From Gemmataceae bacterium (GTDB lineage: Bacteria; Planctomycetota; Planctomycetia; Gemmatales; Gemmataceae), in assembly GCA_009692005.1 (NCBI GenBank), contig SHZZ01000001.1, positions 262,171 to 326,170 on the forward strand: a DNA stretch of 64,000 nucleotides, written 5' to 3'. Of the stretch, positions 36,520 to 38,716 are shown piece by piece. The number at the start of each line of letters is the position of its first letter. The first letter of the stretch is position 1. Below the pieces are notes generated by a model. It was not told the DNA's origin. It saw only the letters and a program-made list of their open reading frames with translations, and made no database searches. The position numbers and the translations under genes were made by a program.

Positions 36520-36597
36520 AATGGGATTATTGTAATCTATGGTTTGGAAATGACTGGATAAAAGAGTAAACGATTGGGCGAAACCGGGAGAAGAAAA

Positions 36598-37467
36598 ATG
36601 AAAACCACGCCAGGCGGAATATTTCTTTGTTTGTTCTTGATCCCCATGCTGGTTGGCTTGGAACCGAAAAAGTCTGTTCAGGATTACGCCCTGTCGCTGG
36701 AGAACCCGGACGGTGGATTCCTTTCGGAGAAAGCAAAAGAAAAAACCTCGTTGCGCGCCACCTTGGGGGCAATTCGAATTTCGCAAATGGAAAAAAAGTC
36801 TCTCTCCAGTCTAAAGGCTCACCAGAAATTTATTTTGAGTTGTTGGAAGGAGTCCGGGGAATTCGCGGATACGCCTGGAGGAAAGCCTGATTTGATCACC
36901 ACTGTGGTTGGCCTGATGGCTTGCAAGGATGCGAATATCTTGGAGGAAAAAGTCCGGAAGAGTGGGGTTCTCTATCTAATTGAAAACGCCAAAAACTTCG
37001 AGGAGGTTCGCATGGCCTGCGCTTTCCTGGCCCAGGAAAAAGAAATCGCGCAAGTTCGCGAAGCCTGGAGTGGATTGGTTTTGAACCATTTGCGCCAAAC
37101 AAAAACGCAGGCCAAGCCACATCAACTTGGACGGGAAATGGCCGGGGCCCTGGTGACCCTCTTGCGGTTGGGCGTTGCCCCGCCGATGGAATATGGTTTT
37201 ACCGGAAGTTGGCGCCAGCAGGATGGTGGGTTTGCCAGCGCCAATTCCACCCAATCGGATATGGACACCGTTTACCGGGTTGGCCGTTTTCTTCACATGA
37301 CCCAAAACCAAACCGAGTTGCGCAAGACTCTTCCCTTTATTGAAAAATGCGCCAACGCCGACGGGGGATTTGGTCCTGCCCCGGGTAAGCCGTCGACCAT
37401 GGGCGCCACTTACCAGGCTCGCATTGTTTTGCTTTGGACCCATTCCCTCCAGCCGAAGAGCAAGTGA
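36598..37467 (+). CDS. exported prenyltransferase/squalene-oxidase-repeat protein
   Basis: A 289-aa protein with an N-terminal signal segment (about 6-21). The rest has alpha/alpha-barrel repeats like those of protein prenyltransferase beta subunits and terpene cyclases. The repeat signature is seen as NPDGGF, QQDGGFAS and NADGGFGP, each followed by helices such as SDMDTVYRVGRFL. No complete cyclase DxDD motif is present, so I do not assign an enzyme reaction. The ATG at 36598 follows GGAGAAG. Four base pairs separate its stop from folK, so cotranscription is likely. It is divergent from queF. Confidence 0.7.
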   Translation: MKTTPGGIFLCLFLIPMLVGLEPKKSVQDYALSLENPDGGFLSEKAKEKTSLRATLGAIRISQMEKKSLSSLKAHQKFILSCWKESGEFADTPGGKPDLITTVVGLMACKDANILEEKVRKSGVLYLIENAKNFEEVRMACAFLAQEKEIAQVREAWSGLVLNHLRQTKTQAKPHQLGREMAGALVTLLRLGVAPPMEYGFTGSWRQQDGGFASANSTQSDMDTVYRVGRFLHMTQNQTELRKTLPFIEKCANADGGFGPAPGKPSTMGATYQARIVLLWTHSLQPKSK

Positions 37468-37471
37468 TTTC

Positions 37472-38716
37472 ATGATGCATGTGGCCTACATTGCGTTGGG
37501 CGGCAACCAAGGGGATTCACGAAATTTCCTCGACCAGGCCGTTGTTGAATTGAATTCACTTCCGGGCTGCCAGGTTCATTCTGTTTCCAGCTATTATCGC
37601 GCCAAACCGGTGGGCGGACCTGAAGGCCAAGGCGAGTACCTCAATGCCTGTGCCGGTGTATTCACCAGCTTGGACCCAACCGGGTTGATGAAGGGACTGT
37701 TGGAGATTGAAAGGAAAATGGGCCGCATCCGGGCAGTGGCCAATGGCCCGCGTACTTTAGACATGGATCTTCTTCTTTTCGATGACTTGGTGGTGAAACA
37801 GGACTTGGTTGAGGTGCCCCATCCGAGAATGGCCGACCGGCCTTTTGTTTTGCGCCCCTTGTGTGAAATTGCCCCCCATGCAATCCACCCGGTTTCTGGG
37901 AAGATGATTCAGGAGCTGCTTTATCATTTGGAAGGAATAATGTCTCCAAGGCGCGGGTTGCCGGATGGACTGGCCGGCAAACGATTCCTGGTAACGGGTT
38001 CAACCACGGGAATTGGCCGGGAAATTGGCCTGGAATTAGCCGGTTGCGGGGCCCTGGTGATTTTTCACGGGCGTGGAATCGCCGGCGCGCCCGAATCGTT
38101 AATCCGTCTGGCAACACACCGGGCTGGGGCTGCCCATTTTTTGCCAGCGGAGTTGGGCGATCCGATTGAAAGAAAGCGGCTTTTGCAGCAGGCCTGGGAC
38201 CTTTTGGGCGGCCTGGATGGTCTGGTATTAAACGCCGGGGCGGACATTCTTACCGGTAAAATATCCCAGTTTAGCCCTGAGGAAAAATTGCGAGAATTGT
38301 ACCGTGTGGATTTGGAGTCAACCTTTTTCTTGGCCCGTGAAATTGGCGCACGGATGAACTCCTCTCCTGCTGGCGGGGTTATCGTGACGATGGGCTGGGA
38401 CCACGCAGCCAGGGGTTTTCCCGGCGACAGCGGGCAGTTATTTGCCGCCGTTAAAGGCGCCGTTTCTTCCTTTACGAAAAGCCTGGCCTTGACGCTGGCG
38501 CCAAAAGTCAGGGTCAATTGCGTTGCGCCCGGCTGGACCAAAACCCGCTGGGGTGAGTCTGCTTCAAATTATTGGCAGGAAAAAGCCGTTCAGGATTGCC
38601 CCTTGCAGCGCTGGGGCACCCCGCAGGATGTGGCTTGGCTGGTGAAATTCTTGTCGTCGTCCGAGGCTGGGTTTATTAACGGCCAGACGATTGCTGTGAA
38701 TGGCGGGGCGGTTTGA
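37472..38716 (+). CDS. folK: fusion of 6-hydroxymethyl-7,8-dihydropterin pyrophosphokinase (FolK) and a short-chain dehydrogenase
   Basis: A 414-aa protein in one uninterrupted frame. Residues about 3-150 are HPPK/FolK: ALGGNQGDSR, the C-terminal motif RTLDMDLLLF at 94-103, and HPRMADRPFVLRPL. Residues about 165-414 are an SDR Rossmann domain with TGSTTGIG at 175-182, NAG, and a C-terminal NGGAV. The usual YxxxK catalytic motif reads FAAVK (Phe324, Lys328), and no serine stands at the usual place 13 residues ahead (GWDHA). FolK makes the pyrophosphate that feeds dihydropteroate synthesis. The fused SDR may act on a pterin, but this is inference and the Tyr loss argues against ordinary SDR chemistry. 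Confidence 0.85.
   Translation: MMHVAYIALGGNQGDSRNFLDQAVVELNSLPGCQVHSVSSYYRAKPVGGPEGQGEYLNACAGVFTSLDPTGLMKGLLEIERKMGRIRAVANGPRTLDMDLLLFDDLVVKQDLVEVPHPRMADRPFVLRPLCEIAPHAIHPVSGKMIQELLYHLEGIMSPRRGLPDGLAGKRFLVTGSTTGIGREIGLELAGCGALVIFHGRGIAGAPESLIRLATHRAGAAHFLPAELGDPIERKRLLQQAWDLLGGLDGLVLNAGADILTGKISQFSPEEKLRELYRVDLESTFFLAREIGARMNSSPAGGVIVTMGWDHAARGFPGDSGQLFAAVKGAVSSFTKSLALTLAPKVRVNCVAPGWTKTRWGESASNYWQEKAVQDCPLQRWGTPQDVAWLVKFLSSSEAGFINGQTIAVNGGAV

Follow-up and report, generated by a model that had tools for sequence, protein, structure and literature searches.

One gene in the window, the 64,000-nucleotide stretch of Gemmataceae DNA analysed here, encodes an HPPK (FolK) domain fused to a short-chain dehydrogenase/reductase (SDR) that carries phenylalanine at the position of the catalytic tyrosine. 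We consider it somewhat probable that the SDR half serves tetrahydromethanopterin (H4MPT) synthesis as a reductase that uses NADPH, most likely as the dihydromethanopterin reductase. H4MPT is a one-carbon coenzyme, and Mch is the methenyl-H4MPT cyclohydrolase. The last step of H4MPT synthesis is without a recognised gene in planctomycetes, and the conserved, operon-linked SDR makes this gap directly testable. If the assignment is true, this SDR would be a pterin reductase that dispenses with a tyrosine usually called essential, and its fusion to FolK would tie the shared pterin branch to H4MPT.

The fusion gene and the active site of its SDR half

The single uninterrupted frame of the original prediction was confirmed at 37472-38716 on the forward strand, with 414 amino acids and both domains above their Pfam cut-offs, and the motifs RTLDMDLLLF and TGSTTGIG were found, as predicted, at residues 94-103 and 175-182. 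The features are as follows.

37472..38716, + strand: HPPK-SDR fusion gene, stop-free translation
37487..37876, + strand: HPPK (FolK) domain, residues 6-135, with the RTLDMD metal-binding motif intact
37931..37969, + strand: linker, residues 154-166, of low conservation, with pLDDT <50 at residues 159-164
37970..38713, + strand: SDR domain, residues 167-414
37994..38017, + strand: TGSTTGIG dinucleotide-binding motif (TGX3GXG)
38396..38404, + strand: W309-D310-H311, family-specific insert at the Ser site
38441..38443, + strand: Phe324 (TTT) at the catalytic Tyr position
38453..38455, + strand: Lys328, invariant
36574..37467, + strand: Prenyltrans alpha-alpha toroid gene, upstream of the fusion on the same strand

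The HPPK half matched PF01288 at residues 6-135 with 117 bits (cut-off 25.7) and TIGR01498 with 126 bits (cut-off 54.1), and the SDR half matched the Pfam model adh_short_C2 at residues 179-412 with 137 bits (cut-off 27). The catalytic Arg-Thr-x-Asp-x-Asp motif of FolK is intact, R94, T95, D97 and D99 being invariant among 15 fusions, and with the query used no other HPPK was detected in the window's genome. An in-frame TTG at 37340 would lengthen the open frame; the ATG at 37472 is the preferred start, because it lies directly past the stop of the upstream gene and agrees with the homologues. The toroid gene adjoins the fusion in two other genomes as well (L259, L262). The fusion was matched in 53 of the 61 sampled genomes of the window's family, at full length in nearly all, and the frame is not a chance one, since 92 of the 102 genomes of the order, presumably Gemmatales, retain the entire fusion at 44-54% identity. 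The AlphaFold model of the fusion consists of two folded domains with a disordered linker between them (mean pLDDT 86, pTM 0.68). Modelled alone, the SDR half adopted a Rossmann fold (pLDDT 93), and its nearest structures were those of FabG, a Y151F mutant among them; all of the PDB matches listed were SDRs.

In HMMER alignments to FabG structures, Phe324, located at −4 from Lys328, aligned with the catalytic Tyr of FabG, so that the FAAVK reading of the YxxxK motif was correct. The usual Ser position is also not serine, as had been claimed; a three-residue insert relative to FabG, W309-D310-H311, lies there between Gly308 and Ala312. The SDR thus retains the classical TGX3GXG loop and the NAG motif (N254-A255-G256), with FxxxK in place of YxxxK and a family-specific W-D-H/Q insert at the site of the catalytic Ser.

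These features are ancient and were kept. Among 89 aligned planctomycete SDR rows, in which some genomes are counted twice, 88 have Phe at position 324 and one (L095, genome G224) has Tyr, by which a sporadic Tyr-to-Phe mutation was rejected. W309 and D310 are present in all rows, as are G315, S320, K328, W355, T358, W360, W368 and W381, and position 311 is Gln in 86. The place aligned to the catalytic Ser is Ala in 81 rows and Ser in 8. The gammaproteobacterial SDRs described below keep W-D, Phe and Lys in 14 of the 14 loci listed; the later tryptophans are not kept. The mean pairwise identity is 60% for the SDR half as compared with 54% for the HPPK half. Judged from the sequences, the conserved residues and the higher conservation of the SDR half suggest that the SDR is an active enzyme.

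Distribution of the SDR and its linkage with H4MPT genes

The SDR was present in 58 of 392 Planctomycetota genomes (E at most 1e-38). In planctomycete orders other than that of the window it is a separate gene, mostly an open frame of 250-350 amino acids, with HPPK encoded elsewhere. Its occurrence follows that of Mch: 57 genomes have both genes, one has the SDR only, three have Mch only and 331 have neither (Fisher p ~9e-64, with kinship ignored), the gene absences being a fast first look taken partly on MAGs. A gammaproteobacterial order was reached via locus L137, one of two useful loci (the other being L136) among the matches listed in a wider contig pattern scan. It carries the SDR in 42 of 53 genomes, at E values of 1e-72 or below that set these proteins clearly apart from other SDRs. 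Mch is also found in 42 of these 53 genomes; 39 have both genes, three and three have a single one and eight have neither (p = 2.5e-5, shared ancestry ignored). The pattern recurs in a second phylum and, among planctomycetes, in several families that do not belong to the class. In the planctomycete family f5, which is without Mch, the SDR is also missing in two of three genomes.

One planctomycete genome, G453, has the SDR without Mch. Its SDR (L098:2935-3753, − strand) adjoins pabB with no DUF6513 between them, and the motif has diverged to GWDA; it is possibly a leftover of a lost H4MPT pathway. Three Mch-positive genomes of family f66 (G271, G405 and G459) have neither the SDR nor AfpA and one DHFR each, which indicates that some other reductase exists.

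Where the SDR is a standalone gene, it is the first of an operon that also contains a DHPS-like gene (DUF6513/TIGR00284) and pabB/pabA. Among 20 such loci, PabB was a neighbour in 14 and the DUF6513/pterin-binding DHPS-like protein in 11, with PabA beside them; these neighbours lie just downstream of the SDR on the same strand in all but one of the loci where the SDR was located. Pterin carbinolamine dehydratase was found downstream in four of the 20 loci, and Mch, a RimK-type ATP-grasp ligase and CitG were found upstream in four. The gammaproteobacterial SDR genes (L137, L234-L249) have a conserved neighbourhood that is unrelated to H4MPT genes. Co-occurrence and gene linkage place the SDR in the class of H4MPT biosynthesis.

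In the tree, the tyrosine-less SDRs of Planctomycetota and gammaproteobacteria formed one clade (100/99, the bootstrap being not fully settled), in which the two are sister groups, apart from FabG-type and other SDRs. The fusion is secondary, because outside the window's order the SDR is a separate gene in the H4MPT operon. The DUF6513/TIGR00284 gene of the window's genome directly precedes pabB with no SDR in that operon, and Mch lies inside a cluster of ATP-grasp, Mch, CitG and PTPS genes; DUF6513 is present in 92 of the 102 genomes of the order. The persistence of the DUF6513-pabB pair without the SDR indicates a transfer of the SDR gene to folK, and the simplest account is that it moved out of the H4MPT operon and then was fused. 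The original prediction had taken FolK as the pointer to pterin metabolism: the pterin role is strongly supported, for the H4MPT branch, whereas a general tie of the SDR to FolK is not, as the gene stands separately elsewhere. No description of an HPPK-SDR fusion was found in the open-access literature (subscription journals were outside the search).

The proposed reaction and its alternatives

Being almost confined to H4MPT-making genomes, the SDR is a strong candidate for an unrecognised reduction step. With a model that may miss distant bacterial forms, no AfpA match above the cut-off came from the 63 planctomycete or the 53 gammaproteobacterial genomes searched, and DHFR_1 was not matched in 41 of the 58 SDR-positive Planctomycetota genomes, that of the window included. 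A reductase is thus missing, and the SDR is the best-linked candidate for it. According to a published account, afpA goes unrecognised in planctomycetes, and DmrA was named for Methylobacterium only (Chistoserdova 2016, PMC5020050).

We infer the cofactor, substrate, reaction and proton source as follows. The SDR would complete the pathway by reducing 7,8-dihydromethanopterin at its C6=N5 imine; NADPH would supply the hydride, Lys328 would hold the nicotinamide ribose, and water would supply the proton, possibly with the help of Asp310. The fused HPPK would act near the beginning of this branch, where it would form the pyrophosphorylated pterin precursor, and the fusion would therefore combine one early pterin enzyme with one late one. 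The first reduction by PTR1 uses the Tyr to pass the proton, and in the second water gives it (PMC8996148). By analogy, an SDR limited to a reduction of the second type need not keep the Tyr. The reduction by DHFR likewise needs no Tyr. No paper containing both 'dihydromethanopterin' and 'short-chain dehydrogenase' was found in the open-access literature, subscription journals being outside the search.

Other unassigned reductions of the H4MPT pathway, such as a ketone reduction, would give the same gene pattern. Also weighing against the assignment are the divergent DHFR-like proteins of some SDR-positive genomes described below, genome G453, the three f66 genomes, the Tyr of L095 and the separation of the gammaproteobacterial SDR genes from H4MPT genes. 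The main rival is a pathway ketoreductase, acting where the ribofuranosyl side chain is converted to the deoxyribitol chain after the DHPS-like condensation; for this ketone or enol reduction we know of no assigned gene. The DHPS-like enzyme, encoded directly after the SDR, would produce the substrate, and the co-occurrence with Mch would be identical. However, ketone reduction by SDRs normally requires the Tyr that is missing here, and the step would be needed by every H4MPT maker, yet the three f66 genomes are without the SDR. We regard this reading as rather unlikely.

Less probable still is that the SDR stands in for FolA as a general dihydropterin/dihydrofolate reductase, acting for folate as well as for H4MPT. 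The absence of DHFR_1 from the window's genome and from 40 further SDR-positive genomes fits such a role, as does the fusion partner FolK, which also serves folate. On the other hand, across the 392 genomes the SDR was not associated with the absence of DHFR (17 with both, 41 with the SDR only, 108 with DHFR only and 226 with neither; p = 0.76), by which plain FolA replacement as the sole role was rejected. The suspected lack of DHFR was borne out in the window's genome and in the majority of SDR-positive genomes, but not as a phylum-wide association. The SDR-positive genomes of families f4, f56 and f69 retain a FolA-type DHFR, and because the SDR persists there, its role is not just that of a dihydrofolate reductase. 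Moreover, DHFR-negative genomes without Mch have no such SDR, and the window's genome contains another SDR that is nearer to pteridine reductases.

This second SDR (L255:9416-10189, +; G000:C84, about 375442-376164) had PRK09135 pteridine reductase as its best NCBIfam match (1.8e-54, below the cut-off). It carries TGSCHHRLG, an Asp near the Ser site and the Tyr, and its sequence makes it a candidate reductase of the FolM/PTR1 type; DHFR is missing from this genome. DHFR_1 was matched in only 125 of the 392 Planctomycetota genomes, which leaves dihydrofolate reduction without an assigned gene in most of the phylum. Some SDR-positive genomes also encode a divergent short DHFR-like protein (L268, L269 and L271; f4, f9 and one of f3). 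Its nearest models are haloarchaeal HdrA, and no H4MPT genes lay nearby at the loci inspected; it could be a DmrA or something else.

The loss of both the classical Tyr and Ser might suggest that the SDR is catalytically dead and, by binding NADPH or a pterin, acts as a sensor or scaffold for FolK. This is very improbable, since W, D, K and the nucleotide-binding loop do not vary, the SDR half is slower to evolve than the HPPK half, and elsewhere it is a separate enzyme-like gene within an operon of biosynthetic enzymes. Of the two roles first proposed, action on a pterin intermediate is supported, refined to the H4MPT branch, and non-catalytic binding is unlikely.

Comparison with known reductases

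The SDR half matched no studied family at a curated cut-off, and the well-studied non-pterin family that would have spoken against a pterin role was not found at that level. It shares with PTR1/FolM the SDR fold, the pterin context, an Asp in the Ser region and the Lys. The hallmark of PTR1/FolM is TGX3RXG (PMC1971073), and the triad of PTR1 is Asp-Tyr-Lys (PMC8996148); the fusion SDR, in contrast, has TGSTTGIG, keeps the Asp and Lys without the Tyr, contains the three-residue insert and is H4MPT-linked. It scored 119 bits against the pteridine reductase model NF006598 (NCBIfam, cut-off 288). Membership in FolM/PTR1 was rejected on the motif, the triad and the score.

Dihydromethanopterin reductases have been described under three types or names: DmrA, which has the fold of DHFR, and two flavoproteins, DmrX and AfpA/DmrB (PMC6193120). 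With DmrA of Methylobacterium the SDR would share the proposed reaction, the use of NADPH and the lack of a flavin, whereas its predicted structure is a Rossmann SDR. With AfpA/DmrB and archaeal DmrX, FMN flavoproteins of an unrelated fold family, it would share the proposed reaction. In our judgement it is evenly balanced whether the tyrosine-less SDRs evolved independently as a third class of dihydromethanopterin reductase, which would have the SDR fold, work without the SDR tyrosine, occur in Planctomycetota and a gammaproteobacterial order, and be fused to FolK in one order. The nearest solved fold is that of FabG, the 3-oxoacyl-ACP reductase, at about 31-34% identity; FabG has the Ser-Tyr-Lys set and an acyl-ACP substrate, whereas the fusion SDR is without the Ser and Tyr.
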